From Geodermatophilus tzadiensis (GTDB lineage Bacteria; Actinomycetota; Actinomycetes; Mycobacteriales; Geodermatophilaceae), in contig NZ_PVTG01000020.1 in NCBI RefSeq assembly GCF_003002915.1, positions 1-64,000 on the forward strand: 64,000 nt of DNA. Direction: 5' to 3'. A model generated the notes under the pieces. The model searched no databases, had not been told where the DNA came from, and saw only the letters and a program-made list of their open reading frames with translations. The position numbers and the translations under genes are program-made. Shown in pieces: positions 2,932 to 31,117 of the stretch (its first letter is position 1; every line of letters begins with the position of its first letter).

Positions 2932-4149
2932 TCAGCCGAGCTGCAGGCCCGCCAGCGGCGACTCGTCGCAGGCCTTCGCCGGCGGGAGCGACGGCATGCC
3001 GAGCAGCGTCGGCTGGCCGCGCACCGGGCCGGTGTGCGAGTGGTCGAGGTGGCTGCGCGGCGCGACCAGGTCGGCGTCGCGGGCGGCCAGCGCCGACTCG
3101 CCGTACCCCTGCACGCACTCGGGGTCGGGGCCGTCCAGCGGCAGGCCGGTGAAGAACTTGGCCGCCATGCAGCCGCCGCGGCAGGCGTCGAAGTGGGCGC
3201 ACCTCGTGCACGCGCCACCGGTCTGCGGGCTGCGCAGCTCGGCGAACAGGTCGCTGTGCTGCCACACCCGCTGGAAGCCGCCCTCCCCGCGCACGTTGCC
3301 GGCGAGGAACTGCTCGTGGATGGCGAACGGGCAGGCGTAGACGTCGCCGACCGGGTCGATCAGGCACACCACGCGCCCGGCACCGCAGAGGTTGAGGCCC
3401 GGCAGCGCCTGCCCGTAGGCCGACAGGTGGAAGAACGAGTCGCCGGTGAGCACCCGGTCGCCGTTGGCCAGCAGCCAGGAGTACAGCTCGCGCTGCTGGG
3501 CCTGGGTGGGGTGCAGCTGGTCCCAGACGTCCGCGCCGCGGCCCGACGGGCGGAACCGGGTGATCCGCAGCTGGGCGCCGTAGCGGTCGGTGAGCGCCCG
3601 GAAGTCGTCGAGCTGGGAGACGTTCTCCCGGGTGACGACGACGGAGACCTTGACGTCCTTCATCCCGGCCTCGGCGAGGTTCTCCAGCGCCCGGGTCGCG
3701 GTGGCGAAGGAGCCGGCGCCGCGGACGCGGTCGTTGACCTCCGCGGTGGCGCCGTCGAGGGAGATCTGCACGTCGACGTAGTCGGTGGCCGCCAGCTGCG
3801 CGGCGCGGGCCCGGTCGAGCTTGACGCCGTTGGTGGAGAACTTGACGCCGACGTCGTGGCCGATGGCGTAGTCGAGCAGGTGCCAGAAGTCCGGCCGCAC
3901 GGTGGGCTCGCCGCCGCCGACGTTGACGTAGAAGACCTGCATCCGCTGCAGCTCGTCGATGACGCCCTCGGCCTCGGCCGTCGTCAGCTCGCGCGGGTCG
4001 CGCCGGCCCGAGGAGGACAGGCAGTGCACGCACGCCAGGTTGCAGGCGTAGGTGAGTTCCCACGTCAGGCAGATGGGGGCGTCGAGGCCGTACTCGAACT
4101 GGTCGACGAGGCGCCCGCCGGTCGGGCGTTCCGGGACGACGGCGGTCAC
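2932..4149 (-). CDS. mftC: Mycofactocin radical SAM maturase MftC
   Basis: A 405-residue radical SAM/SPASM enzyme. MftC decarboxylates the C-terminal Tyr of MftA and then cross-links it to the preceding Val. The [4Fe-4S]-SAM motif is visible as CNLACVHC near residue 35, followed by GGGEP. The C-terminal half has the auxiliary-cluster cysteines (CGAGRVVC, then GGACTRCAHFDACRGGC). The GTG start at 4149 overlaps the mftB stop as GTGA, so translation is coupled. The window lacks the mftD that normally follows. Identification is secure from the motifs plus the adjacent mftA and mftB. Confidence 0.95.
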   Translation of the reverse strand: MTAVVPERPTGGRLVDQFEYGLDAPICLTWELTYACNLACVHCLSSSGRRDPRELTTAEAEGVIDELQRMQVFYVNVGGGEPTVRPDFWHLLDYAIGHDVGVKFSTNGVKLDRARAAQLAATDYVDVQISLDGATAEVNDRVRGAGSFATATRALENLAEAGMKDVKVSVVVTRENVSQLDDFRALTDRYGAQLRITRFRPSGRGADVWDQLHPTQAQQRELYSWLLANGDRVLTGDSFFHLSAYGQALPGLNLCGAGRVVCLIDPVGDVYACPFAIHEQFLAGNVRGEGGFQRVWQHSDLFAELRSPQTGGACTRCAHFDACRGGCMAAKFFTGLPLDGPDPECVQGYGESALAARDADLVAPRSHLDHSHTGPVRGQPTLLGMPSLPPAKACDESPLAGLQLG

Positions 4150-4568
4150 AGGATCTCCTGGTTCGTCTCGGCCTCGGTGCAGGGGCCCGCCGCGAGGGTT
4201 GAACGGCTCTCCTGCAGGGTCCCGCCGCGAGCCTGCGAGCGGTGGGGGGCAGGAGGGTCCTTCTCGGGGGGCAGCGAGGTCCTTCGTTCGATCATCTGGG
4301 AGCGGGCGAGGTCGGCCAGCGCCGTGACGTAGGCGGGCCGCTGGGCCTCGGGCACACCGCACGCGACCAGCGTCGCGTCGGCGCTGGGGTGGTCGGCCAG
4401 CGTCTCCACGACGGTGACCAGCGTCTTCGACTTGAGGAAGGACAGCTTCCGGTTGCCGAAGTGGTAGACGAGCGCCCCGAACGGCTCCGGCCGCAGGGCC
4501 ACCGACCGGGCGCGCCGCCACGGCAGAGCCGGGTCGAAGACGGCTGCGGCCGGAGCGGTCGAGGTCAT
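4146..4568 (-). CDS. mftB: Mycofactocin precursor-binding chaperone MftB with extended C-terminus
   Basis: A 140-residue protein. Residues 1-96 match MftB, a PqqD-like RiPP recognition element that presents the MftA leader to MftC: RPEPFGALVYHFGNRKLSFL is the diagnostic core. Residues 97-140 have no counterpart in the usual roughly 95-residue family. Residues of about 102-121 are encoded by a dispersed hairpin repeat (4207-4263) that has a second copy at 27.9 kb. The tail is low-complexity and probably disordered. Start ATG 4568 lies 10 bases after the mftA stop, and the stop overlaps the mftC start (GTGA). The extension is thus probably a repeat insertion that kept the frame. Confidence 0.93.
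   Translation of the reverse strand: MTSTAPAAAVFDPALPWRRARSVALRPEPFGALVYHFGNRKLSFLKSKTLVTVVETLADHPSADATLVACGVPEAQRPAYVTALADLARSQMIERRTSLPPEKDPPAPHRSQARGGTLQESRSTLAAGPCTEAETNQEIL
4207..4263. repeat. Dispersed hairpin repeat, copy 1
   Basis: About 50 bases (core 4214-4263) are nearly identical to 27898-27948. It folds as an outer stem CTCCTGC/GCAGGAG (4209-4215 with 4249-4255) and an inner stem CCCGCCGC/GCGGTGGG (4221-4228 with 4239-4246), with a ten-base loop. In copy 2 the outer stem sequence differs but still pairs. It lies inside the mftB reading frame. Confidence 0.7.
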
Positions 4569-4578
4569 CTCGGTCGGC

Positions 4579-4701
4579 TCAGTAGACGCCGCACATGCCG
4601 TCGATGGAGACCTCCTCGACGAGGGACTCCTCGACCAGCGCCTCCTCGGCCACGGCGGTCTGGGTCTCGGCCTGCGTCTCGGTCTGGGTCGTCTCGGGCA
4701 T
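4579..4701 (-). CDS. mftA: Mycofactocin precursor peptide MftA
   Basis: A 40-residue ribosomal peptide precursor. It ends in SIDGMCGVY, the invariant MftA C-terminus; the last Val-Tyr pair becomes the redox cofactor. The leader is acidic and repetitive (TQTETQAETQ, then EEALVEESLVEEV) and is the part bound by MftB. Start ATG 4701 has GGAGG six bases upstream; a longer in-frame ORF upstream to 4767 lacks such a site. It is the first gene of mftA-mftB-mftC and is divergent from the TetR gene. The leader appears longer than the roughly 30-residue mycobacterial precursor. Confidence 0.96.
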   Translation of the reverse strand: MPETTQTETQAETQTAVAEEALVEESLVEEVSIDGMCGVY

Positions 4702-4746
4702 GCGGACCTCCGGGTTCCGGGGGACGGGGATGGCGAGGACGTTAGA

Positions 4747-4780
4747 GACACCGGGTGCCACCGGCAAGGGCGCCGGTGTC
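4747..4780. promoter_or_regulatory. Candidate MftR operator in the mftA-mftR intergenic region
   Basis: Inverted repeat GACACCGG (4747-4754) ... CCGGTGTC (4773-4780) with an 18-base spacer, placed between the divergent mftA and TetR genes. TetR-family regulators commonly bind such palindromes between themselves and the genes they control. No binding data; the long spacer is somewhat unusual for a TetR dimer. Confidence 0.35.
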
Positions 4781-4854: not shown

Positions 4855-5499
4855 ATGCCGCTGGGCCACCCCGTGGCCGTCGTCCCCCGGACCGGCGTGG
4901 CCACCCCCCGCCCGGTCGGCGGGGTGCGGGCGGCGACCCGGGCCCGCATCGAGCAGGCGGCGCTGGAGCTGTTCACCGCCGCGGGCTTCGAGCAGGTGAC
5001 GATCGAGGAGATCGCCGCGGCCGCGCACACCAGCCGGCGCACCTTCTTCCGGCACGTCGGCAGCAAGGCCGACGCCGTCTGGGGCGACTTCACCGGGCAC
5101 GTCGAGCGGCTCGCGCGGCTGCTCGAGGAGGCCGGCGACGACGTCCCGGTGCTGGCGGCCGTCTTCGGTGCCTACGTCGAGGTCAACGACTACGCCGCCG
5201 CCGACCTGCCCCTGCTGCGCCAGCGGATGCGGCTGATCCTCACCGAGCCGGCGCTGCTGGCGCACTCCCAGGTGCGCTACGCCGACGTCGACCGGGTGGT
5301 CGCCGACTACGTGGCCCGCCGCTGCGGCCAGGACCCCGCCGCGCTGCTGCCGCGGATGGTGGCCACGGCGACCCGCGCGGCGGCCACCACCGCGTTCGAG
5401 GTGTGGCTCGCCGACGAGTCCGCCTCGCTGGCCGACACGCTGCGCGCCGCCTTCCACCAGCTCGCCACCGGCTTCCCGCAGCTGCGCGCCGGGGCCTAG
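4855..5499 (+). CDS. mftR: TetR-family regulator, mycofactocin-associated (MftR)
   Basis: A 214-residue TetR protein. The N-terminal helix-turn-helix is seen in TRARIEQAALELFTAAGFEQ followed by VTIEEIAAAAHTSRRTFFRH. The C-terminal half is helical and would form the ligand-binding dimer. MftR homologues repress the mft operon and, in mycobacteria, respond to long-chain acyl-CoAs. ATG 4855 was chosen because GGAGG lies six bases upstream (4844-4848); GTG 4849 is too close to it. It is divergent from mftA across 153 bases holding a palindrome. The name rests on family plus position. Confidence 0.85.
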   Translation: MPLGHPVAVVPRTGVATPRPVGGVRAATRARIEQAALELFTAAGFEQVTIEEIAAAAHTSRRTFFRHVGSKADAVWGDFTGHVERLARLLEEAGDDVPVLAAVFGAYVEVNDYAAADLPLLRQRMRLILTEPALLAHSQVRYADVDRVVADYVARRCGQDPAALLPRMVATATRAAATTAFEVWLADESASLADTLRAAFHQLATGFPQLRAGA

Positions 5500-5535: not shown

Positions 5536-6750
5536 TCACCCCTCCTGCGCCTCGCGCAGGCCCTCCAGCAGGCGGTCGACGTCGGAGTCGTCGGTGTAGG
5601 GCGCCATCCCGACGCGCATGCCGCCGGCGTCGCCGAGGCCGAGCCGCCGGGAGGCCTCGATCGCGTAGAAGTTGCTCGCCGGGGCGTTGACGCCGCGGGC
5701 GGCCAGCGCGCGGGACACCTCGGCGGCCGGCCGGTCGGCGAAGGTGAGCAGCAGCGTCGGCGTCCGGTGCCGCGCGCGCGACCACAGCGTGACGCCGGGC
5801 AGCTCCTCGACGGCGTCCTCCACGCGCTGCCGCAGCCGGTCCTCGTGCGCCTCGACGGCGGCCATGCCCGCGACCAGCCGGGCGCGACGGTCGCCGTCGG
5901 ACCCGCCGAGCGCGGCCAGGTAGTCGACCGCCGCGGTGGTGCCGGCGAGCAGCTCGTAGGGCAGCGTGCCCAGCTCGAAGCGCTCGGGGACGGCGTCGGT
6001 GGAGGGCAGCAGCTTGTCCGGGTGCAGCGTCTCCAGCAGCGCCGGCGCGGCGACGACGCAGCCCAGGTGCGGGCCGAGGAACTTGTAGGGCGAGCAGGCG
6101 TAGAGGTCGGCGCCGAGCGCGGCGACGTCGACGGCCGCGTGCGCGGTCAGGTGCACGCCGTCCACGTAGGCGAGCGCGCCGACCCGGTGCGCCAGGGCGG
6201 TGATCGCCGGGACGTCGGGGCGGGTGCCGATCAGGTTGGAGGCGCCGGTGACGGCGACCAGCCTCGTGCGCTCGCCGACCACCGCGGCGACCGCCTCGGG
6301 CGTCAGCTCGCCGGTGGCCGGGTCGAGGTCGGCCCAGCGGACGGTGGCCCCGCGGGCGGCGGCGGCCTGCACCCACGGCCGGACGTTGGCGTCGTGGTCG
6401 AGGCGGGTGACCACGACCTCGTCGCCCGGACCCCACCCCGCGGCCAGCGCGCGGGACAGGTCGTAGGTCAGCTGGGTCATCGAGCGGCCGAAGACGACGC
6501 CGCCGGGGTCGCTCCCGACCAGGTCGGCGACCGCGGCCCGGGCGGCCACGACGACGGCGTCGGCGTTGCGCTCGGCCTCGGTGACCGAGCCGCGGTTGGC
6601 GATCGGCGAGCCGAGGGTGGCCGCGACGGCGTGCGCGACCTGGCGGGGGACCTGCGAGCCGCCCGGCCCGTCGAAGTGCGCGGCACCGGCCCGCAGCGCG
6701 GGGAAGTCCGCCCGGACGGCGGCGACGTCGTAGGTCGTGGCAGTGGTCAC
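5536..6750 (-). CDS. Cysteine desulfurase-like PLP enzyme (TIGR01976-type)
   Basis: A 404-residue class V aminotransferase-fold protein. The PLP lysine lies in ACSPYKFLGPHLG and the cofactor aspartate in AYVDGVHLTAH. The N-terminal stretch HFDGPGGSQVPRQVAHAV is typical of the cysteine-desulfurase-like group, which is widespread in actinobacteria and has no assigned substrate. It is not a classical IscS/NifS: the length and the N-terminal pattern differ. It is convergent with mftR across 36 bases. Start GTG 6750 gives VTTATTYDVAAVR. A role in mycofactocin chemistry is not supported beyond proximity. Confidence 0.85.
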   Translation of the reverse strand: MTTATTYDVAAVRADFPALRAGAAHFDGPGGSQVPRQVAHAVAATLGSPIANRGSVTEAERNADAVVVAARAAVADLVGSDPGGVVFGRSMTQLTYDLSRALAAGWGPGDEVVVTRLDHDANVRPWVQAAAARGATVRWADLDPATGELTPEAVAAVVGERTRLVAVTGASNLIGTRPDVPAITALAHRVGALAYVDGVHLTAHAAVDVAALGADLYACSPYKFLGPHLGCVVAAPALLETLHPDKLLPSTDAVPERFELGTLPYELLAGTTAAVDYLAALGGSDGDRRARLVAGMAAVEAHEDRLRQRVEDAVEELPGVTLWSRARHRTPTLLLTFADRPAAEVSRALAARGVNAPASNFYAIEASRRLGLGDAGGMRVGMAPYTDDSDVDRLLEGLREAQEG

Positions 6751-6941: not shown

Positions 6942-8234
6942 ATGCAGGTCGAAGAACTCCTCAAGCCCTTCCCCATCAAGGAGTTCCACCCGTTCCCCCG
7001 GGCGCTCATGGGCCCGGGCGCGCACGAGATCATCGGCCCCGAGGCGCTGAAGCTGGGCTTCACGAAGACGCTGATCATGACGTCGGGCCTGCGCGGGTCG
7101 AACATCGTCGAGAAGATCGCCGAGTCGATGCGCTACCACGGCCTCGAGGTCGTCGTCTACGACAAGGTGGAGTCCAACCCCAAGGACTACAACGTCATGG
7201 ACGCCGTCGCGCTGTACCAGGAGAACCAGTGCGACAGCTTCGTCTCCATCGGCGGCGGCTCCAGCCACGACGCCTGCAAGGGCGCGCGCATCTCGGTCGC
7301 CCACGACGGCCGCAGCGTCAACGAGTTCGAGGGCTTCAACCAGTCGGAGAACCCGAAGAACCCGCCGCACATCGCCGTCTCGACGACGGCCGGCACCGGC
7401 TCGGAGACCTCCTGGGCCTACGTCATCACCGACACCACGACCGATCCGGACAACCCGCACAAGTACGTGGCCTTCGACGACCACTGCCTGGCCACGCTGG
7501 CGATCGACGACCCGGTCCTGTACTTCGACTGCCCGATCGACTACACCGCGCAGTGCGGCTTCGACGTCCTCGCCCACGCCAGCGAGCCCTACGTCTCCCG
7601 GCTGGACTTCCCGCCGTCGCTGGGCAACGCGCTCTACGCCATCAAGCTGACCGACCAGCACCTGCGCCAGGCGGTGTGGAACGGCCAGGACCTCGGCGGC
7701 CGGCAGGGGATGATGTACGCCCAGTACATCGCCGCGCAGGCGTTCAACTCCGGCGGCCTGGGGATCATCCACTCGATCAGCCACGCGGTGAGCGCCTTCT
7801 ACGACACCCACCACGGGCTGAACAACGCGGTCGCCCTCCCCCGCGTCTGGGCGTTCAACATGCCCACGCAGTACCAGCGCTTCGCCGACATCGCCGAGGC
7901 CATGGGCGTGGACACCCACGGCATGACCGCCCCGCAGGCCGCCGACGCCGCCCTGGCCGCCGCCATCCGGCTGCTGCGCGACGTGGGCATCCCGGAGAAG
8001 TTCACCGACGTCACCCAGGACAGCTACTCCAAGAACCGGCTGGGCCAGGGCCCGACGAAGTTCTACGAGCAGGCCAGCGTCATCAAGGGCGACGACACCG
8101 ACGTCGACCGGATCACCCACCACGTGCTCGGCGACGCCTGCACCCCCGGCAACGCCAAGGAGTGCACCTTCGAGACCGTGCGGCCGGTGGTCGAGCACTG
8201 CATGAACGGCGACCTCGACGACCTCCTGTCCTGA
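6942..8234 (+). CDS. NDMA-dependent methanol dehydrogenase (MDO/MNO type, Fe-ADH fold)
   Basis: A 430-residue iron-containing-alcohol-dehydrogenase-fold protein that closely resembles the actinobacterial NDMA-dependent methanol:nicotinoprotein oxidoreductases. These hold NAD(P)H tightly and pass electrons to mycofactocin or to the dye NDMA. SIGGGSSHDACKGARI is the dinucleotide loop; metal ligands lie in FDVLAHASEP, IIHSISHAVSAF and YDTHHGLNNAV. Start ATG 6942 has GGAAGGA about eight bases upstream; a longer ORF to 6810 lacks one. It is followed by a strong hairpin and then a MoxR-VWA pair. Methanol, formaldehyde or other short alcohols are likely substrates. Confidence 0.92.
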   Translation: MQVEELLKPFPIKEFHPFPRALMGPGAHEIIGPEALKLGFTKTLIMTSGLRGSNIVEKIAESMRYHGLEVVVYDKVESNPKDYNVMDAVALYQENQCDSFVSIGGGSSHDACKGARISVAHDGRSVNEFEGFNQSENPKNPPHIAVSTTAGTGSETSWAYVITDTTTDPDNPHKYVAFDDHCLATLAIDDPVLYFDCPIDYTAQCGFDVLAHASEPYVSRLDFPPSLGNALYAIKLTDQHLRQAVWNGQDLGGRQGMMYAQYIAAQAFNSGGLGIIHSISHAVSAFYDTHHGLNNAVALPRVWAFNMPTQYQRFADIAEAMGVDTHGMTAPQAADAALAAAIRLLRDVGIPEKFTDVTQDSYSKNRLGQGPTKFYEQASVIKGDDTDVDRITHHVLGDACTPGNAKECTFETVRPVVEHCMNGDLDDLLS

Positions 8235-8246
8235 CCGACCTCCCGT

Positions 8247-8278
8247 GGGGCGGGGTGACGGGTCCGTCACCCCGCCCC
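8247..8278 (+). terminator. Hairpin between the methanol dehydrogenase and moxR genes
   Basis: A 15-bp perfect stem (GGGGCGGGGTGACGG / CCGTCACCCCGCCCC) with a two-base centre, 13 bases after the dehydrogenase stop and 24 bases before the moxR TTG start. It probably terminates or attenuates transcription so that the dehydrogenase is made in excess over the ATPase and VWA proteins, or protects the upstream mRNA end. Confidence 0.7.
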
Positions 8279-8301
8279 TCTCCCTCGCACGAGGAGCCTC
8301 G

Positions 8302-9585
8302 TTGACCGTCCAGCCCGTCCCCGCCGACCCCGCGCCGGCCGACTTCGACAGCCCCGACGACGTCGCCCGCGCGTTCGCCGAGCAGGGGTACATCACCGAC
8401 CGGCGGCTGGCGACGACGACGTTCGTGATGAGCCGCCTGGCCAAGCCGCTGCTGCTCGAGGGCCCGGCCGGGGTGGGCAAGACCGAGCTGGCCAAGACGC
8501 TGGCCGCCGCCACCGGCCGCCGGCTGCTGCGGCTGCAGTGCTACGAGGGCCAGGACGAGACCAAGGCCCTCTACGAGTGGGACTACGGCAAGCAGCTGCT
8601 CTACACGCAGATCCTGCGGGAGAAGACCGCGCAGCTGCTCGCCGACACCGACACCCTCGAGGCCGCGGTGGAGCGGGTGGCCGGCGCGGACAGCGCGTTC
8701 TTCAACGAGCGCTTCCTCGCGCCCCGGCCGCTGCTGGAGGCGATCCGGTCGGAGGAGCCGGTGGTGCTGCTCGTCGACGAGGTCGACCGCGCGGACGAGG
8801 CGCTGGAGGCGGTGCTGCTGGAGATGCTCGCCGAGTACCAGGTCTCCGTCCCCGAGCTCGGCACCTTCGTGGCGAGGCAGGCGCCCTACGTCGTGCTGAC
8901 GTCGAACAACACCCGCGACCTGTCGGCCGCGCTCAAGCGGCGTTGCCTGCACCTGTTCCTCGAGTACCCCGACGCCGACCGCGAGCTGGAGATCCTGCGG
9001 TCGAAGCGGACCGGGCTGGGCGACGCCGCGGCGCAGCGGCTGGTCGACGTCGTGCGGGGCCTGCGGGGCCTGGACCTGCGCAAGGCGCCGAGCATCTCCG
9101 AGACGATCGACTGGGCCCGCACGCTGGCGGTGCTCGGCGTCGGCGAGCTCGACGCCGAGGTCCTCGCCGACACCGTCTCCGTCGTCGCCAAGTACGAGCG
9201 CGACGTGGAGCGCTCGCGGCAGGCGCTGCCGCGGCTGGTCGACCCCAACGCGACCGTGCCGTCGTCCCTGCAGCACGACCACGGCCCCGGGCACACCCAC
9301 TCGCACGGGTCGCACACCCACGGCGGGCACAGCCACGACCACGACCACACCGGCCACGACCACACCGGCCACGACCACGGCGACCACACCGACCACGGCG
9401 ACCACCCCGCCGACGACGGCCGGCGGGTGCGGGCGGCCAAGGACACCCCCGGCCGGCACGACGACTCCTTCGGCGCGCGCGGCGGCCCCGCGGACGCACC
9501 GGGCGTGCCCAGGCAGGTGCGGGCCGGGCAGGGCGCGCGGTCGTTCGCCGGCAACCGCGGCGGCGCGCGGCGCCGGCCGGTCTGA
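8302..9585 (+). CDS. MoxR-family AAA+ ATPase with His-rich tail (MadB-like)
   Basis: A 427-residue MoxR AAA+ ATPase. Walker A is GPAGVGKT (about residues 54-61), Walker B VVLLVDEVDRAD, and the arginine-finger region is NNTRDLSAALKRR. MoxR proteins work with a VWA partner to insert metals or activate metalloenzymes. Residues 325-368 contain 18 histidines in 44 positions (repeats such as HDHTGHDHTGHDHGDH), a likely metal-binding reservoir; the third MoxR in this window has none. The TTG start at 8302 has GAGGAG five bases upstream. The stop overlaps the next ATG (TGATG). From memory, NCBI families name this group MadB, after its link to alcohol dehydrogenase. Confidence 0.9.
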   Translation: MTVQPVPADPAPADFDSPDDVARAFAEQGYITDRRLATTTFVMSRLAKPLLLEGPAGVGKTELAKTLAAATGRRLLRLQCYEGQDETKALYEWDYGKQLLYTQILREKTAQLLADTDTLEAAVERVAGADSAFFNERFLAPRPLLEAIRSEEPVVLLVDEVDRADEALEAVLLEMLAEYQVSVPELGTFVARQAPYVVLTSNNTRDLSAALKRRCLHLFLEYPDADRELEILRSKRTGLGDAAAQRLVDVVRGLRGLDLRKAPSISETIDWARTLAVLGVGELDAEVLADTVSVVAKYERDVERSRQALPRLVDPNATVPSSLQHDHGPGHTHSHGSHTHGGHSHDHDHTGHDHTGHDHGDHTDHGDHPADDGRRVRAAKDTPGRHDDSFGARGGPADAPGVPRQVRAGQGARSFAGNRGGARRRPV

Positions 9586-11096
9586 TGGAGGCGGCGCTGC
9601 ACCGGTTCGTCCGTCTGCTGCGGCTGCGCGGGATGCGGGTGTCCACCGCCGAGGCCGTGGACGCCTTCGCCGCGGCGACCGCCGTGGGGGTCGGCGACCG
9701 GGCCGCGCTGGAGGCGGCGCTCGGGGCGGCGCTGCTCAAGGACCGCCGCGACGCCGAGGTCTTCGCCGACACCTTCGCCCGGTTCTTCACGCTGCGGCCG
9801 GTGGTCGAGGCCGAAGAGGGCCACGGGCACGCCCACGACGACCTGGAGGACACCGGCGAGCTGACCCGGATGACCTGGTCGCCGGAGCCGCCGACCGACG
9901 TCCAGGAGGGGCACAGCCACGGCAAGCCGGTCGACATCCGCGACTTCTTCCGCCCCGAGGACCTCGCCGCGCAGTACAACCTGCACCAGGAGGCGAACAA
10001 GATCGACCTGGCCTCGCTGACCCAGCAGATCGTGCTGTCCTCGGAGAGCCCCGCCGGGCCGGCCGACGACGCCCAGCAGGTCCAGCTGGAGGTGTCGCGG
10101 CTGCACGACCCGGGCCTGCCCGGCGACCTGGTGCGCGCAGGCGGCACGCCGATGGACGTCGAGCTGACGGTGGCCCAGCAGCAGGCGCTGCGCGACTGGC
10201 TGGCCGACCCCGTCGGCGACCTCGACCCGGAGGTCGCCGAGGCGCTGCGCCGCCAGCTCGCCGGGGTGATCGAGGACCTGCCCGAGCTGCTGGCCGCGCA
10301 CCTGCAGAAGCTCGCCGAGATGACCGAGCTGGCCATCGAGGAGCGCGAGCTGGCCCGGGCGCCGGTGGAGAAGATCACGGAGTCGGAGCGGGCGCGGATC
10401 GAGGAGTCGCTGCGCCGGCTGGCCACCTCGCTGCACGGCGGGCTGACCCACAAGAAGCGGCAGTCACCGCGCGGGCGGGTCGACGTCTCCCGCACGATGC
10501 GTCGCAACCTGCGCTACGACGGCGTCCCGTTCCGGCCGGTGACCACCCGGCTGGCCGAGGACAAGCCGCGGCTGGTCGTGGTGGCCGACGTGAGCCTGTC
10601 GGTGCGGACGACGGCGCGGTTCAGCCTGCACGTCGTCCACGCGCTGCAGGACGTGTTCGCCCAGGTGCGCACGTTCGCCTTCGTCGACGACGTCGTGGAG
10701 ATCACCGACCTGTTCGACGAGCACCCCCTCGAGCACGCGCTCGGGCTGGTGTTCGGCGGGGACGTCGTCGACGTCGACGCCTCCAGCGACTACGGCACGG
10801 TCTTCGCCACGCTCGCCGCCGACCACTCCGGCGCGTTCACCCGCCGCTCCACGCTGCTGGTGCTCGGCGACGGCCGCGGCAACGGCAACACCCCGCGACT
10901 CGACGTCTTCGGCGACCTGACCCGCCGGGTGCGCGAGACGATCTGGCTGACCCCCGAGCCGCGCTACTCCTGGGCGCTGGGCGGCTGCGACCTGCCCGCG
11001 TACGCCGAGTACTGCGACCGGGTGGAGGTCATCCGCGACCACTCGGGCCTGGAGAGCTGGGCGACCGACGTCGTCACCCGTGCCTCGTCCCGCTGA
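9585..11096 (+). CDS. VWA-domain protein (CoxE/MadC-like), partner of MoxR
   Basis: A 503-residue protein with a C-terminal von Willebrand factor A domain of the CoxE type. The MIDAS motif is DVSLS (about residue 333), with Leu where Gly is usual but all metal-contacting residues present. The first 300 residues are helical and include two short His-rich stretches, EEGHGHAHDD and EGHSHGKPVD, echoing the tail of its MoxR partner. The start ATG overlaps the moxR stop by one base, so the two are translationally coupled and probably form one complex that activates the upstream dehydrogenase. It ends immediately next to the 3' end of the convergent aldo/keto reductase gene. Confidence 0.88.
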   Translation: MEAALHRFVRLLRLRGMRVSTAEAVDAFAAATAVGVGDRAALEAALGAALLKDRRDAEVFADTFARFFTLRPVVEAEEGHGHAHDDLEDTGELTRMTWSPEPPTDVQEGHSHGKPVDIRDFFRPEDLAAQYNLHQEANKIDLASLTQQIVLSSESPAGPADDAQQVQLEVSRLHDPGLPGDLVRAGGTPMDVELTVAQQQALRDWLADPVGDLDPEVAEALRRQLAGVIEDLPELLAAHLQKLAEMTELAIEERELARAPVEKITESERARIEESLRRLATSLHGGLTHKKRQSPRGRVDVSRTMRRNLRYDGVPFRPVTTRLAEDKPRLVVVADVSLSVRTTARFSLHVVHALQDVFAQVRTFAFVDDVVEITDLFDEHPLEHALGLVFGGDVVDVDASSDYGTVFATLAADHSGAFTRRSTLLVLGDGRGNGNTPRLDVFGDLTRRVRETIWLTPEPRYSWALGGCDLPAYAEYCDRVEVIRDHSGLESWATDVVTRASSR

Positions 11097-24035: not shown

Positions 24036-25916
24036 TCACCCCAGCAGGCGGGTGAGCGCCGGGCCCAGGTCGCGCACCGTGCGCACCATCTGCGCCGTCC
24101 CGCCGCCGCGGGCGGCCAGCGACCGGGCGGCCTCCTCGGCCTCGGGGGTGGGCAGCGGGCAGAGCACGTGCAGCCGGTCGAACCCGCCGAGCGCCGACTC
24201 GGGCGGGTCGCCGGTGGTGTGCAGGCAGTCCGACAGCAGGACGACGACCCGCTCGTCGGCGACCTCGGTGGCCAGCTGCCGGCGCGCGGCGCGCAGCGCA
24301 CCGGCGAGGTCGGTCATGCCGTGGCCGCGCAGCGTCAGCAGGTGGGTGACGACGTCCTCGGCGGCCCGCCGCTGCCCCTGCCGCTGCACCACCTCCACCT
24401 CGCGGCCGAAGGTGATCAGGCTGGTGTGCAGCCGTTCGTCGCCGGTGAGCACGACACCGGCCGCGGCCACCGCGGCGATCGCCACGCCCAGGCCGGTCAT
24501 CGACCCGGACGTGTCCACGGCGAGGCAGACCGCGCGCCGGAGCCCGGTCCACCGGCGGGTGACCAGGTCGCCGGGCTGCAGCGGGGTGCCGAGGTCCCAG
24601 CGGTCGAGGGTGCGGTCGAGGTCGAGGTCGCCGTCCCCGTGCCGGTCGGGCACCAGCCGGCGGGTGCCGCGGGTGCGCGTGCGGCCCACCCGGCCGACCT
24701 GGAGGAACACCCGGCCGGCCAGCCGCCGGGCGGCCGCGCGCAGCTCGCGGTCGGTGGCCGCGGCGAGGTCGGTGAGGAGTGCGGCCGCGGCGTCGGCGTC
24801 CTCGGCCATCAGTGCGGCGAAGGCCTCCTCGTCGAGCTCGCCGACCTCGGGGCTGACCTCTGCGAAGGACTCGTGCCGGGCGGCCATCTCCCGGCGGCTG
24901 GTCTGCCGGCGGGTGCTGCCGCCGCGGCGGTCGCGGCGCAGCGCGGACGCGGAGTCGGTGCCCGCCGGGGACTCCGGCGGGCCCTCACCTTTTCCCTGAC
25001 CACCCGCGTCCGCGGGTGCGGCGTCGGGCCGGTCGGCGTCCGGCTCCTCGGGTGGCGGGGCGGTCTCGGGCCAGACGTCGTCGAGGATGTCGTCGATGAC
25101 CGCCTCGGGCGTGCGCTCCACGCCGTCGGCGACGCGGATCCGCCCCGACAGCGCGGCGTAGGCGGCGTCCCGGGCGGTCTCGCGGGCGCCCTCGGCACCC
25201 AGGCCCGACTGCCCGCGGACGTCGAGCAGGCCGCCGAGCAGCAGCACCAGGTCGGTGGCGCCGCGCACCGAGGAGCCCATCCGGACGTCGCGGTGCTCGC
25301 GCGAGGCGCGCACCAGCCGGACGGCGAGGCCGATGAGCGCCGGCGGCGCCCCGGTGACCGCGCCGACGATCGCCCGCTCGGCGGCGGCGTCCTGGTAGCC
25401 GAGGACGACGCGGCACATCCGGTCGGCGATGGCCTGCCCGACGCGCGCGGTGCCGATGGCGTCGAAGGGGTTCATCGCGGCGATGAGCCGGAAGCCCGCG
25501 GCCGCGCGCACGTGCCCGAGCCGGGGCACGGTGATCTCGCCCTCGGTGAGCACCGTGATGAGGACGTTGAGCGTCTCCTCGGGGATGCGGTTGAGCTCCT
25601 CGAGGTAGAGCAGCCCGTGCCCGCGCATCGCCGTCAGCAGCGGCCCGTCGGTGAAGCTCGCGGGCACGTAGCCCTCGGCGAGGACGGCGGCGGGGTCGTA
25701 CTGGCCGATCAGGCGGGCCGGCGTCAGCTCGGCGTTGCCCTCGACGAAGACGACCTCCTGGCCGGCGTCGGCGGCGATGGCGCGCAGCAGCGTCGACTTG
25801 CCCGTGCCCGGCGGCCCCTCGAGGACGACGTGCCGGTTGGTCCGGAGCGCCACGGCGAGCACCTCGCGCTCCCGCTGCAGCCCGATGACCGGGTGTGGCG
25901 CGGTCGGGTTCCCCAC
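24036..25916 (-). CDS. MoxR AAA+ ATPase fused to VWA domain
   Basis: A 626-residue protein combining, in one chain, functions usually on two genes. Residues 1-300 are a MoxR ATPase with Walker A GPPGTGKST and Walker B LLYLEELNRIP; a charged, disordered linker follows (about 310-370), then a helical region and a C-terminal VWA domain with MIDAS DTSGS near residue 467 in CLAVDTSGSMTG. The layout resembles magnesium-chelatase I/D fusions. GTG 25916 has GGGAGGA upstream. It follows the zinc ADH gene (27145-26006) behind a hairpin, as the other MoxR-VWA pair follows the methanol dehydrogenase, so a role in activating this ADH is likely but inferred. Confidence 0.9.
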   Translation of the reverse strand: MGNPTAPHPVIGLQREREVLAVALRTNRHVVLEGPPGTGKSTLLRAIAADAGQEVVFVEGNAELTPARLIGQYDPAAVLAEGYVPASFTDGPLLTAMRGHGLLYLEELNRIPEETLNVLITVLTEGEITVPRLGHVRAAAGFRLIAAMNPFDAIGTARVGQAIADRMCRVVLGYQDAAAERAIVGAVTGAPPALIGLAVRLVRASREHRDVRMGSSVRGATDLVLLLGGLLDVRGQSGLGAEGARETARDAAYAALSGRIRVADGVERTPEAVIDDILDDVWPETAPPPEEPDADRPDAAPADAGGQGKGEGPPESPAGTDSASALRRDRRGGSTRRQTSRREMAARHESFAEVSPEVGELDEEAFAALMAEDADAAAALLTDLAAATDRELRAAARRLAGRVFLQVGRVGRTRTRGTRRLVPDRHGDGDLDLDRTLDRWDLGTPLQPGDLVTRRWTGLRRAVCLAVDTSGSMTGLGVAIAAVAAAGVVLTGDERLHTSLITFGREVEVVQRQGQRRAAEDVVTHLLTLRGHGMTDLAGALRAARRQLATEVADERVVVLLSDCLHTTGDPPESALGGFDRLHVLCPLPTPEAEEAARSLAARGGGTAQMVRTVRDLGPALTRLLG

Positions 25917-27302: not shown

Positions 27303-27875
27303 TCAGCGGCGGCGCGGCAGGACCCGGTGGGCCTCCCCCGCCCGCGCCGGGTCGAGCGGGACGGCGCAGGTGAGCACGGCCGGACCCAGCCGCAGCACGC
27401 CGTCGGTGAGCGGGGCGCAGCGCACGCCGCCACGGCCGCGCATCCCCCGGTGGGCGCCGGGTGCCAGCACGGTGTCCAGCCAGGCGCACGGGTTGGCCGG
27501 ACGCCCGCCCTGCAGCAGCACCGCCCCCTCGCCGCAGTCCAGGGCGAACCGCTCGTCGCGCAGCGCCTCGACCTGCGCGCCGCGCAGGACGACGTTGCGG
27601 CGGGTCAGCAGCGGGTCCAGCGGGCCGGTGCCGAGCTCGGCGGCCAGCGCCTCCACGGACTCGGCGGCCAGCACGGTCACCGCGGCGTCCCGGTGCGCGG
27701 GCCGGCCGGCGTAGCGGTCCCCCACGACGCCGTGCCCGGCCCGCACCTCGACCCGCTCGACCCGGTCGCCGTCCTGGGGCGGGACGACGCCACCCGGCCG
27801 CCCGTCGTAGCGGTGCGCCGGCGAGACCAGCAGCCCGACGACCTCGACCTCGTGGACGTACGAGGGCTCGGTCAC
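27303..27875 (-). CDS. MOSC-domain protein
   Basis: A protein of 190 residues from GTG 27875, of the MOSC (molybdenum cofactor sulfurase C-terminal) type. HEVEVVGLLVSPAHRYDGRP starts the fold; GDRYAGRPAHRDAAVTVLAAE and NVVLRG are family features. The single conserved Cys expected to carry sulfur is plausible in NPCAWLDTV. A start at GTG 27950 is also possible: it overlaps the XdhC stop as GTGA and would add about 25 residues encoded by a dispersed repeat. It is the last gene of the MoxR-VWA-XdhC group and fits molybdenum-cofactor sulfuration or transfer. Confidence 0.82.
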   Translation of the reverse strand: MTEPSYVHEVEVVGLLVSPAHRYDGRPGGVVPPQDGDRVERVEVRAGHGVVGDRYAGRPAHRDAAVTVLAAESVEALAAELGTGPLDPLLTRRNVVLRGAQVEALRDERFALDCGEGAVLLQGGRPANPCAWLDTVLAPGAHRGMRGRGGVRCAPLTDGVLRLGPAVLTCAVPLDPARAGEAHRVLPRRR

Positions 27876-27890
27876 CGACCCGCCGTCCGG

Positions 27891-27948
27891 CCCCTCGGCA
27901 GGGTCCCGCCGCGAGCCTGCGAGTGGTGGGGGGGCCGAGGGGTCCTTC
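27891..27948. repeat. Dispersed hairpin repeat, copy 2
   Basis: Nearly identical to copy 1 (core 4214-4263) across about 50 bases. The outer stem here is CCCCTCGGC/GCCGAGGGG, a different sequence from copy 1 that still pairs perfectly, and the inner stem keeps pairing through a G-U change (GTGGTGGG). It sits just after the xdhC stop, in the region before the MOSC start. Confidence 0.7.
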
Positions 27949-29068
27949 ACCTCTCGGCGGTGCGGTGGATCGGGCCCTCCGTGCCGGTCAGCCGCTCACC
28001 CGTGCCACCCCACCGCCCGGCGATGATCTCCGCGGCGATCGACACGGCGGTCTCCTCGGGCGTGCGGGCGCCGAGGTCCAGCCCGATCGGCGAGGACAGC
28101 CGCGCCAGCTCGTCCTCGGCCAGCCCGGCCTCGCGCAGCCGGTCGAGCCGCTCGTCGTGGGTGCGCCGCGAGCCCATGGCGCCCACGTAGGCCACCGGCA
28201 GCCGCAGCGCGACCTCCAGCAGCGGGACGTCGAACTTCGGGTCGTGGGTCAGCACGCACAGCACGGTGCGCTCGTCGATGCGGCCGGCGTCGACCTCGGC
28301 CTGCAGGTAGCGGTGCGGCCACTCGACGACCACCTCGTGCGCGTCGGGGAACCGGCGGGCGGTGGCGAACACCGGCCGCGCGTCGCACACGGTCACCCGG
28401 TAGCCGAGGAACGACCCGACCCGGGCGACGGCGGCGGCGAAGTCGATGGCGCCGAACACCACCATCCGCGCCGGCGGGGCGAACGAGGACACGAAGAGGG
28501 TCAGCTCGTCGCCGCGCCGCTCGCCGTCGTGGCCGTAGGTCAGCGTGCCGGTGCGGCCGGCGGCGAGCATGCCCCGCGCGTCGTCGGCGACGGCGTCGTC
28601 GAGACGCTGCAGGCCCAGCGTGCCGGAGCTGCGGTCGGGCCAGAGCACCAGCCGCCGGCCGATCCGGTCCGCCGGCCCGCGCACCACGGTGACGACGGCG
28701 ACCGGCTCGTGCCGGCCCACCGACTCGGCGATCTCGCCCAGCTCGGGGAAGGACTCGCGCGACACCGGCTCGACGAAGACGTCGAGGATGCCGCCGCAGG
28801 TCAGGCCGACGGCGAACGCGTCGTCGTCGCTGACGCCGTAGCGCTCCAGCGTCGGCACGCCGGTCTCGACGACGTCCTTGGCCTCCTCGTACACGGCGCC
28901 CTCCACGCAGCCGCCGGACACGCTGCCGACCGCCGTCCCGTCGGGACCGACCAGCATGGACGCCCCGGCCGGCCGCGGCGCCGAGCGCCAGGTGGCCACC
29001 ACCGTCCCCATCCCGACCGTCTCCCCGGCCTGCCACCAGCCGACCAGGTCGTCGAGCACGTCACGCAC
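27947..29068 (-). CDS. XdhC/CoxI-family molybdenum cofactor insertion protein
   Basis: A 373-residue XdhC-type protein. The N-terminal XdhC/CoxI part carries SAPRPAGASMLVGPDG and GSVSGGCVEGAVYEEA; the C-terminal Rossmann-like part has MVVFGAIDFAAAVARVGSFL and a terminal region with LGARTPEETAVSIAAEI. XdhC binds the molybdenum cofactor, protects it during sulfuration, and delivers it to xanthine-dehydrogenase or CO-dehydrogenase-type enzymes. GTG 29068 has AGAGAGGTGG upstream. It follows the VWA gene by 29 bases. The molybdo-enzyme it would serve is not in the window. Confidence 0.9.
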   Translation of the reverse strand: MRDVLDDLVGWWQAGETVGMGTVVATWRSAPRPAGASMLVGPDGTAVGSVSGGCVEGAVYEEAKDVVETGVPTLERYGVSDDDAFAVGLTCGGILDVFVEPVSRESFPELGEIAESVGRHEPVAVVTVVRGPADRIGRRLVLWPDRSSGTLGLQRLDDAVADDARGMLAAGRTGTLTYGHDGERRGDELTLFVSSFAPPARMVVFGAIDFAAAVARVGSFLGYRVTVCDARPVFATARRFPDAHEVVVEWPHRYLQAEVDAGRIDERTVLCVLTHDPKFDVPLLEVALRLPVAYVGAMGSRRTHDERLDRLREAGLAEDELARLSSPIGLDLGARTPEETAVSIAAEIIAGRWGGTGERLTGTEGPIHRTAER

Positions 29069-29097
29069 CGTCGTCCACCTCTCTGTCGCCCGCCTGC

Positions 29098-30210
29098 TCA
29101 GGCACGGGAGATCACCCCCGACAGCTCCTCGAAGGCCGCCAGGCTGTGCCCGGCGACGAACGCGTCGACCGCGGGCAGCGCGGCCTGCATGCCGGCGGTG
29201 AGCGGCTCGTAGCCGGCGCGGCCCTTGTGCGGGTTGACCCAGACGACGGCGTGCGCGAGCCGGCGCAGCCGCGCCATCTGCTCGCCCAGCAGGTCGGCGC
29301 TGCCGCGCTCCCAGCCGTCGCTGCACACCACGACGACGGCGCCCCGGGCGGTGCCGCGCTGGCCCCAGCGGTCGAGGAAGGCCTTGAGCACCTCGCCGAG
29401 CCGCGTGCCGCCGGACCAGTCGGGGATGGCCTCGCCGCTGGCGCTCAGGGCCCGGTCGGGGTCGCGCAGCCGCAGCTCGCGGGTGACGCGGGTGAGCCGG
29501 GTGCCCACGGTGAACACCTCGGTCGACGCCGGCCGGGCCCGCACGGCCGCGTGCGCGAAGCGCAGCAGCGCGTCGGCGTAGGGCGCCATGGAGCCGGAGA
29601 CGTCGACCAGCAGGACCACCCGCCGGGGCCGGGGCCGCGCCCGCCGGTGCAGCAGCCGGGTGACCTCCCCGCCGTCGCGCAGCGCCCGCCGCACCGTGCG
29701 CGAGGCGTGCACCGCGCCGTGCGGGGCGGCCCGACGGCGGCGGGACGCGCGCATCGGCGTGGCGGGCACCAGCAGCGCGAACAGCCGGCGCAGGTGCTCG
29801 CGCTCGGCCGGGGTGAGGTCGGCGACGTCGCGGTGCCGCAGCACCTCCTCGCCGCTGGCCTGCGCGGCCAGGTCGGGGGCGTCCTCGCCGTCCTCGCCGG
29901 AGCCGGTGCCGGGGTCCACCGGCGCGGAGGCGGCCAGGGTCGGCGGCTTCTGCGCGGCGGGGGTGGTGCGCCGGGGCGCCTCGCCGCCGAACCAGGCGGC
30001 GAAGGCGGCGTCGTAGCGGTCGAGGTCGTCGGGACCGGCGCACAGGGTCAGCCGGCCGGACCAGTAGACGTCGGTCGGGTCGAGCACGTCGAGCGCCGCG
30101 ACCGCCGACAGCATCGCCTCCACCCGGTCCGGCGAGGCCGCGACCCCGGCGGACCGCAGCGTCCGCGCGAACCCGAGGACGACCTCGACGACGTCCCGCT
30201 CAGCCTCCAC
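29098..30210 (-). CDS. VWA-domain protein, CoxE type
   Basis: A 370-residue CoxE-like protein. A helical N-terminal part (about residues 1-180, with an acidic low-complexity linker around 90-120) precedes a VWA domain with intact MIDAS DVSGS near residue 200 in VVLLVDVSGSMAPYAD. CoxE acts with the MoxR protein CoxD in assembling the copper-molybdenum site of CO dehydrogenase. The start overlaps the moxR stop by 11 bases. It lacks the His-rich stretches of the VWA protein at 9585. Confidence 0.9.
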   Translation of the reverse strand: MEAERDVVEVVLGFARTLRSAGVAASPDRVEAMLSAVAALDVLDPTDVYWSGRLTLCAGPDDLDRYDAAFAAWFGGEAPRRTTPAAQKPPTLAASAPVDPGTGSGEDGEDAPDLAAQASGEEVLRHRDVADLTPAEREHLRRLFALLVPATPMRASRRRRAAPHGAVHASRTVRRALRDGGEVTRLLHRRARPRPRRVVLLVDVSGSMAPYADALLRFAHAAVRARPASTEVFTVGTRLTRVTRELRLRDPDRALSASGEAIPDWSGGTRLGEVLKAFLDRWGQRGTARGAVVVVCSDGWERGSADLLGEQMARLRRLAHAVVWVNPHKGRAGYEPLTAGMQAALPAVDAFVAGHSLAAFEELSGVISRA

Positions 30211-31117
30211 CGAACAGCGCTCCGCGGGCCAGCGAGTGCACCCGGTCGGTGTCCTCGCGGTACTTCAGCACCGCCCCGAGCGTGCGGGCGGCGAGGTCGG
30301 GGTCGAGGTCGCGGGCGCCGAGGGCGTGCAGCGCGCTGGCCCAGTCCATCGCCTCGGCCACCCCCGGCGGCTTGAGCAGGTCCAGGGTGCGCAGCTTCGC
30401 CGCCGCCCGGGCCACCTCGCGCGCCAGCTGTTCGGTGACCTCGGGCAGCCGGGTCCGGAGGATGGCGACCTCACGGTCGAAGTCGGGGTGCTGCAGCCAG
30501 TGGTAGAGGCAGCGGCGCTTGAGCGCGTCGTGCACCTCGCGGGTGCGGTTGGAGGTGAGCACCACCAGCGGGGGGACCTCCGCGTGCACGGTGCCGAGCT
30601 CCGGGATCGAGATGGTGAAGTCCGAGAGCACCTCGAGCAGGAAGGCCTCGAACTCGTCGTCGGCACGGTCGACCTCGTCGACCAGCAGCACGCTCGGCGA
30701 GTCCTCGAGGGCCTGCAGCAGCGGGCGGGCCAGCAGGAAGCGGCGGTCGTAGAGGGAGGCCTCCAGCCGCTCGGTGTCCCCGGTGGCGTGCGCGGCCTCG
30801 GCGGCGCGCAGGTGCAGCAGCTGGCGGCCGAAGTCCCAGTCGTAGAGCGCCTGGCTGGCCTCCAGGCCCTCGTAGCACTGCAGCCGGTACAGCGGGCGGC
30901 CGGTGACCTCGGCCAGCGCCCGGGCCAGCGCCGTCTTGCCGACGCCCGCCTCGCCCTCCAGGAACAGCGGCCGGCGCATGACCAGGGCCAGGTAGGCGGC
31001 GGTGGCCAGGCCCTCGTCGGGCAGGTACCCGGTGTCCCGCAGCGCGGCGGCCAGCGCGTCGGGCCCGTCGAAGGGGGCGCCGGGCGCGGACGACGGGGCA
31101 GCCGTGGTCTCGGTCAC
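30200..31117 (-). CDS. MoxR-family AAA+ ATPase, CoxD type
   Basis: A 305-residue MoxR ATPase with Walker A GEAGVGKT (about residues 55-62), Walker B SVLLVDEVDRAD and NRTREVHDALKRRC. It closely parallels the MoxR at 8302 in the ATPase core but ends without any histidine tail. It starts the operon moxR-vwa-xdhC-(MOSC). By analogy with coxD-coxE-coxF it would help mature a molybdenum hydroxylase. Start ATG 31117; upstream sequence is a 148-base gap containing a long palindrome. Confidence 0.9.
   Translation of the reverse strand: MTETTAAPSSAPGAPFDGPDALAAALRDTGYLPDEGLATAAYLALVMRRPLFLEGEAGVGKTALARALAEVTGRPLYRLQCYEGLEASQALYDWDFGRQLLHLRAAEAAHATGDTERLEASLYDRRFLLARPLLQALEDSPSVLLVDEVDRADDEFEAFLLEVLSDFTISIPELGTVHAEVPPLVVLTSNRTREVHDALKRRCLYHWLQHPDFDREVAILRTRLPEVTEQLAREVARAAAKLRTLDLLKPPGVAEAMDWASALHALGARDLDPDLAARTLGAVLKYREDTDRVHSLARGALFGGG

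Follow-up and report, generated by a model that had tools for sequence, protein, structure and literature searches.

How MoxR ATPases and their partner proteins with a VWA domain activate a client is poorly understood (PMC13036017). In the NorQ-NorD pair, which functions in the insertion of FeB (PMC9976466), NorQ remodels the linker between the N-terminal and VWA domains of NorD, and deletions in this linker lead to a cytochrome c-dependent nitric oxide reductase (cNOR) devoid of FeB (PMC13036017). The present work deals with a three-gene unit of Geodermatophilus tzadiensis, a single operon next to mycofactocin genes, that encodes an N,N-dimethyl-4-nitrosoaniline (NDMA)-dependent methanol dehydrogenase (MDH), a MoxR ATPase and a VWA protein, and that is located in a stretch of 64,000 nucleotides (contig NZ_PVTG01000020.1, positions 1 to 64,000), referred to as a whole as the window. 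Both helper proteins carry His-rich modules, and what is new here is the paired coming and going of the MoxR tail and the VWA clusters among relatives, together with one genome that holds both kinds of unit. Based on sequence comparisons, structural models and analogy, the MoxR-VWA pair is on balance probably a maturation unit that inserts or keeps the metal of MDH, with a two-part His relay.

An earlier note on this DNA had considered such a unit as not described in detail. This has to be qualified, since the family of the pair is already present in NCBIfam (MadB and MadC); no description of the pair or of its His modules was found among the titles and abstract beginnings listed in a search of open-licence papers. 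One candidate for an earlier description, PMC8191103, was discarded: in the passages checked, the words mycofactocin, methanol dehydrogenase and MoxR sit in an expression table on another MoxR gene. MSMEG_6242 (Mno/Mdo) is required for ethanol use in M. smegmatis, and the cluster MSMEG_6236-6242 responds jointly to ethanol (PMC6529628, PMC11778925); the term MoxR is absent from the main texts of these two papers.

Genes and His-rich modules of the unit

The following features were located in the unit:

6942..8234, forward strand: NDMA-dependent methanol dehydrogenase, an iron-type alcohol dehydrogenase (ADH) of 430 aa (TIGR04266, 685.5 bits; cut-off, 625)
8247..8278, forward strand: intergenic hairpin, a 15-bp inverted repeat with arms GGGGCGGGGTGACGG/CCGTCACCCCGCCCC, from the sequence
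8302..9585, forward strand: MadB-like MoxR AAA+ ATPase of 427 aa (NF047784, AAA_5)
8461..8484, forward strand: Walker A motif GPAGVGKT, MoxR residues 54-61, read from the sequence
9274..9405, forward strand: His-rich segment of the MoxR C-terminal tail, residues 325-368, 18 His by count, mostly of low model confidence
9418..9459, forward strand: MoxR tail motif RRVRAAKDTPGRH, residues about 373-386, a short predicted helix with a PGRH-like pattern
9526..9582, forward strand: C-terminal MoxR tail motif GQGARSF...RRRPV, from comparison of the tails of relatives
9585..11096, forward strand: MadC-like VWA protein of 503 aa, with a CoxE-type VWA domain at residues 278-466 (PF05762, NF047783)
9822..9836, forward strand: VWA His cluster 1, HGHAH, residues 80-84, in a predicted disordered stretch
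9912..9920, forward strand: VWA His cluster 2, HSH of GHSHGKPVDI, residues 110-112, in a predicted disordered stretch
10587..10601, forward strand: start of the metal ion-dependent adhesion site (MIDAS), DxSxS (DVSLS), VWA residues 335-339, read from the sequence

The MDH gene stands where the earlier note had placed it and keeps the name given there, its product passing the curated TIGR04266 cut-off in a profile search. The note had also described stops and starts as overlapping: this holds for MoxR and VWA, since the TGA of the former and the ATG of the latter share base 9585, but not for MDH and MoxR, which are 67 bases apart (the TTG start of MoxR at 8302 being our choice). MoxR matched AAA_5 (PF07728, 54.5 bits; cut-off, 22) and contains both the Walker A motif and a Walker B motif (VLLVDE), and the VWA protein is of the CoxE type, with a PF05762 match of 108.7 bits (cut-off, 26.4) and the MIDAS DxSxS sequence. 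A strict MadB or MadC label for these two proteins was rejected, since both scored below the respective cut-offs (375.8 bits against 475 in NF047784 for MoxR, and 254.6 bits against 600 in NF047783 for VWA). The 18 His reported in MoxR residues 325-368 were counted exactly there; in 5000 shuffles of this protein the densest 44-residue stretch never held more than nine, and the next-highest count per 44 residues among the genes called in the window was seven. Both His clusters reported for the VWA protein were recovered as well.

In AlphaFold2 (AF2) models, the AAA+ core of MoxR is mostly ordered and the tail past about residue 316 is mostly of low confidence, with a short helix at residues 373-380. 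The VWA protein is predicted to have an ordered N-terminal domain (about residues 1-70), helices from residue 196 and the VWA domain from about residue 289; its segments 77-117 and 130-195 showed a predicted local distance difference test (pLDDT) value below 50, and both His clusters lie inside the first of them. When the MoxR model was searched with Foldseek, NorQ occupied ranks 1-9 (E 1.8e-11 to 1.8e-10) and CbbQ ranks 10-11 (E 1.9e-10), so that NorQ and CbbQ were not separated; the matches to solved chains were 16-20% identical.

Co-occurrence of the His modules in MoxR and VWA

MDH was present beside all 172 distinct MoxR-VWA pairs and also beside that of L252, and MoxR was directly downstream of MDH in 134 of the 138 loci fetched with MDH, which supports the unit of MDH, MoxR and VWA put forward in the earlier note as a conserved one. 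Three of the four exceptions (L078, L122 and L157) were cut by contig ends, and the fourth (L144) has no MoxR. Comparison of the MoxR tail and the VWA clusters in the 172 pairs revealed both modules in 146, neither in 21 and a discordant state in one (L040), the VWA N-terminus being unreadable in four (L162, L168, L299 and L301); L252, beyond the 172, has both tail and clusters. At least four tail His were found in 151 of the 172 MoxR proteins, L040 among them. That the two modules vary together argues most strongly for a shared function, and this observation adds to what the earlier note contained. On a tree of MoxR cores the fewest changes amounted to six for the tail and five for the VWA clusters, and five supported independent pairs differed in the same direction in four cases and in the opposite direction in none, with no difference in one. 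By these sequence comparisons, a joint loss of both modules is suggestive only.

All 76 complete named loci had at least six tail His, with composition kept rather than sequence, and all 76 had both VWA patterns (HxHxH at about residue 80 and GHxHGKPxDI at about residue 110). The expectation that a His tail always occurs on the MoxR beside this MDH was not borne out. In the sample of the order, the nine type-1 loci (831-975 bits), which presumably correspond to Mno/Mdo of the literature, showed no comparable tail (L040 having four scattered His), and 20 of the 25 type-2 loci had one, the rest being L046 and L066-L069. Seven more tail-free type-2 loci (L292, L294, L296, L300, L306, L307 and L309) came from the family of genome G125, which includes named Amycolatopsis and Saccharopolyspora by identical loci, so that type-2 loci without the tail were 12 in all. 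A universal His tail was therefore ruled out. Genome G081 combines a His-free type-1 set (L043) with a His-bearing type-2 set (L051), and this speaks against genome composition as an influence on the His modules.

None of the 60 MoxR proteins of two other clades of the same order had a His tail. In the CODH/XdhC-type clade (CODH, carbon monoxide dehydrogenase; query, 30203-31117, from a gene group with an XdhC/CoxI-family gene) tails did not exceed 20 residues and had no more than one His in the 30 loci kept, and as expected from the earlier note none of the 30 was His-tailed, the group being assigned by similarity and not by coxL. The second clade likewise had at most one His in all 30 loci kept, two of its tails being 31 and 34 residues long. 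For the first control group, 29 neighbouring VWA proteins were located in the 30 loci, with zero or one HxH among the first 200 residues. Each control consists of the 30 loci kept per search among the matches listed, assigned by similarity, and includes a MoxR of the window genome.

The loci came from several samples. In the order, an MDH match was found in 34 of 298 genomes, the window's included, giving 34 loci besides the window; the named set comprised the best 80 of 392 named relatives, with an MDH 85-99% identical to that of the window, the nearest being Geodermatophilus loci with 99% MDH identity. In the phylum sample 23 of 396 genomes matched (19 new loci) and in the class sample 15 of 394 (five new loci), and 70 further loci were found through the MoxR protein at E <= 1e-105. 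The 138 loci fetched with MDH include at least 10 repeats of another. Left out of the count of 172 were the three loci at contig ends and L144 (MDH without MoxR), L112 and L154 (MoxR cut by a contig end), L163 (with an internal stop in its MoxR match), together with 29 duplicates; six additional loci were unused since they came from genomes already counted, and L252, whose MoxR overlaps MDH, was added by hand outside that count. The VWA proteins of L042, L045 and L169 were read by eye, as was that of L156, which is displaced; in L129 the VWA gene is interrupted, and its N-terminal part, read in its own frame, shows both clusters.

In the phylum sample, most deep-branching MDH loci had short tails ending in an HKHAH-like sequence, or compact His tails, with none in L169. 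Many loci within L155-L168, also deep-branching, combine a short MoxR tail ending in an HRSTHKHAH-like motif with HDHDH/HSH clusters in VWA. The short-tailed form is perhaps an older form of the His module.

Some single loci departed from the usual arrangement. L144 is a second MDH copy of Pseudonocardia acidicola in which no MoxR-VWA was found within 9 kb downstream, and the other copy (L143) has one. L299 has a His-tailed MoxR and unrelated sequence at the expected VWA N-terminus, and L301 a His-tailed MoxR next to a contig end, where VWA could not be read.

Putative metal ligands of MDH and distal motifs of the MoxR tail

By alignment to chain 8zwd of BmMDH, a Bacillus enzyme, D208, H212, H281 and H291 were placed as putative metal ligands of MDH, residues at these positions being those that we take to bind metal in this family. 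The four residues were invariant in 171 of 171 aligned MDHs. A ligand change accompanying tail loss was looked for at positions 208, 212, 277, 281, 290 and 291 of these MDHs, and none was found; a change of this kind was discarded as a correlate of tail loss, since the putative ligands are the same with or without His in the partners.

The His segment of the MoxR tail varies in length and sequence (HGHG, HDH, HSH, HHH). Of the 12 type-2 loci that lack His, 11 retain the more distal PGRH-like motif. Using loose patterns, both distal motifs (PGRH-like and RSF...R) were recognized in 115 of 151 His-bearing and 11 of 21 His-free tails, and those 11 are 11 of the 12 type-2 losses. Since the distal motifs persist in these losses, the tail seems, from sequence, to have a second role independent of His.

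Hairpin between MDH and MoxR

The 15-bp hairpin that had been noticed between MDH and MoxR is real, with arms GGGGCGGGGTGACGG/CCGTCACCCCGCCCC at 8247-8278: the gap (73 nt as folded) had a folding energy of -42.1 kcal/mol and a z of -3.4. In a survey of 149 distinct MDH-MoxR gaps with estimated ends, 12 of which were too short for the folding test, z was -2 or lower in 108 of the 137 tested, versus seven of 90 coding control stretches. The hairpin is kept as a structure and not as a sequence, which varies between lineages; this would fit a function in adjusting the amount of MDH mRNA relative to helper mRNA. Gaps of L048, L055, L067, L085 and L121 contain very strong hairpins with mutually unrelated sequences at the same place of the operon.

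Genes around the unit

Upstream of the unit, mycofactocin genes and a regulator were found:

2932..4761, reverse strand: mycofactocin genes beside the unit (radical SAM, mftB-like, mftA)
2932..4149, reverse strand: radical SAM gene mftC (TIGR03962 match at 3094-4107; PF04055)
4146..4502, reverse strand: mftB-like gene, by position alone, with no Pfam match
4579..4761, reverse strand: mftA precursor (MftA, PF23709)
4855..5499, forward strand: MftR-type TetR regulator (PF17754, MftR C-terminal domain)

The presence of mycofactocin was rejected as a discriminating factor, since its radical SAM protein exceeded the cut-off in each of the 54 genomes searched, of which 34 have MDH and 20 do not. A class V aminotransferase gene (cysteine desulfurase-like; 5536-6750) separates the mycofactocin regulator from MDH and lies on the opposite strand. 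The window contains a second MoxR-VWA pair without a His tail (30200-31117 and 29098-30210, within 27303-31117), grouped with an XdhC/CoxI-family gene (27947-29059); this gene group is of the molybdenum-hydroxylase maturation kind. In addition, 24036-25916 encodes a single protein in which, from sequence, an N-terminal AAA-type ATPase part is combined with a C-terminal VWA-like DTSGSM motif.

Discussion

In the maturation unit favoured here, the MadB-like MoxR, presumably as hexamers, would bind the MadC-like VWA protein, and the VWA/MIDAS part or the N-terminal domain of the latter may dock on MDH, as suggested by NorD and CbbO. ATP hydrolysis would pull or twist the VWA linker and so open MDH, and the active-site divalent metal, probably Zn or Fe, would be inserted or kept at D208/H212/H281/H291. 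In a joint relay, the MoxR His tail would gather metal near the machine and the VWA linker clusters would carry it to the opened target. A more elaborate form of this mechanism, which we regard as tentative and rather doubtful, is a machine with its own metal store: the tail on each motor subunit would collect metal, the linker clusters would take it over and ATP-driven twisting of the linker would deliver it into MDH. If true, a single complex would unite metal acquisition, motor and delivery, and several actinobacterial lineages without both His modules would depend on free metal. Of the dedicated metallochaperone proposed in the earlier note there remains a clade-limited variant of MoxR-VWA metal insertion in a conserved unit, but with a tail that is not universal.

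The pair could also be an activase and not a metallochaperone, opening MDH so that a dead-end ligand, or a tightly bound nucleotide that has been damaged, is expelled and the cofactor reloaded, as CbbQO acts on rubisco; the His modules would then buffer metal, protect bound metal during opening or serve other ends. The persistence of the MoxR-VWA pair where the His modules are missing agrees with such an activity, as does the MoxR model, almost as close to CbbQ (ranks 10-11), part of the rubisco activator CbbQO (PMC4660213), as to NorQ. On the side of the client, inhibition of a Bacillus type III MDH by ADP-ribose is relieved by a Nudix hydrolase (PMC12926040), and mycofactocin-linked ADHs of the iron type are considered to be nicotinoproteins (PMC3023750). 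An activase would however leave unexplained why the His modules of two separate proteins occur or are missing together, and we judge it unlikely, though a serious competitor. That joint pattern, together with the location of both modules in low-confidence and probably flexible segments, would be accounted for if tail and linker shared one metal as a clasp or gate, assembly or ATP hydrolysis occurring only with metal and the His acting as assembly or sensing elements. Since the His-rich tails have a median of 10 His, which exceeds the need of one bridging site, this appears improbable.

The His tracts might, finally, be functionless low-complexity sequence grown by slippage in genomes rich in guanine and cytosine (GC). 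The GC content of the window is 76%, and many tails are HGHGHG runs, the x of HxH being Gly in 630 of 1060 cases in the tails. Slippage alone is nevertheless very improbable as an origin: the tract is kept in 76 of 76 complete named loci and missing from 60 MoxR proteins of other clades in the same order, the VWA clusters sit at fixed positions, G081 has both kinds of unit, and absences coincide in both proteins.

Several points weigh against a metal-relaying maturation unit. Where the His modules are missing, MDH loci retain the MoxR-VWA pair with unchanged MDH residues, and because of this the His modules are, judging from these sequences, dispensable for basic function. L040, a type-1 locus, breaks the pairing with four scattered tail His and no VWA clusters. 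The sign test on the independent pairs gave a p of 0.125, which is not significant, and fewer than six pairs cannot reach 0.05. In addition, the thresholds for presence (at least four tail His, and at least two HxH in VWA residues 60-140) were set by ourselves, the named set leans towards close relatives (with 85-99% MDH identity), and the MoxR-core tree was built quickly under a simple model. The likeness to NorD is confined to layout and literature; the 50 rows of a structure search with the VWA model consisted mainly of VWA domains, integrin I domains and the MIDAS of Rea1/MDN1, and the absence of NorD from them proves nothing. Gene linkage, the joint presence or absence of the His modules, their location in predicted disorder and the unchanged residues at the MDH ligand positions are direct observations, from which we infer metal binding, hand-over, the identity of the metal and MDH as the client.

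The value of the maturation unit as a working model lies in the natural set of units with and without the paired His modules, among relatives and inside one genome, with which the metal-delivery step becomes directly testable. It could possibly also help in expressing these enzymes in other hosts for methanol use.

Comparison with known systems

The window unit resembles MadB (NF047784) and MadC (NF047783) of NCBIfam in its gene order, MDH-MoxR-VWA, and in the relatedness of the proteins. The two type-1 pairs compared with these models pass both cut-offs, with 484.8 (L037) and 547.5 bits (L043) against 475 for MadB, and 755.5 and 767.9 bits, respectively, against 600 for MadC; unlike the window pair, neither has a His-rich tail or VWA clusters.

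NorQ-NorD similarly consists of a MoxR ATPase with a VWA partner, and NorQ provides the solved structures nearest to the MoxR model. NorD, like the AF2 model of the window VWA protein, shows an N-terminal domain, a disordered linker and a VWA domain (PMC13036017), a comparison of layout that leaves the N-terminal domains themselves aside. NorQ-NorD differs in having a membrane haem enzyme as its client, and the words 'histidine' and 'tail' are absent from the main text of that paper on NorQD. In CoxD-CoxE of CO dehydrogenase a MoxR ATPase serves the assembly of the active-site metal cluster (PMC3471820), and the window VWA protein is of the CoxE type; the CODH/XdhC-type MoxR proteins of this order differ from the window MoxR by their short tail with at most one His. 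The rubisco activase CbbQ-CbbO likewise joins a MoxR motor to a VWA adaptor (PMC4660213). CbbQ ranks just after NorQ in likeness to the window MoxR, and CbbQ-CbbO differs in clearing inhibitory ligands, with no metal insertion.

A maturation NTPase or accessory protein likewise carries a His-rich segment in the case of the nickel chaperones HypB, UreE and Hpn, whose folds and clients are unrelated to those of the MoxR-VWA unit. The window unit is unlike them in that its His are split between two partner proteins.

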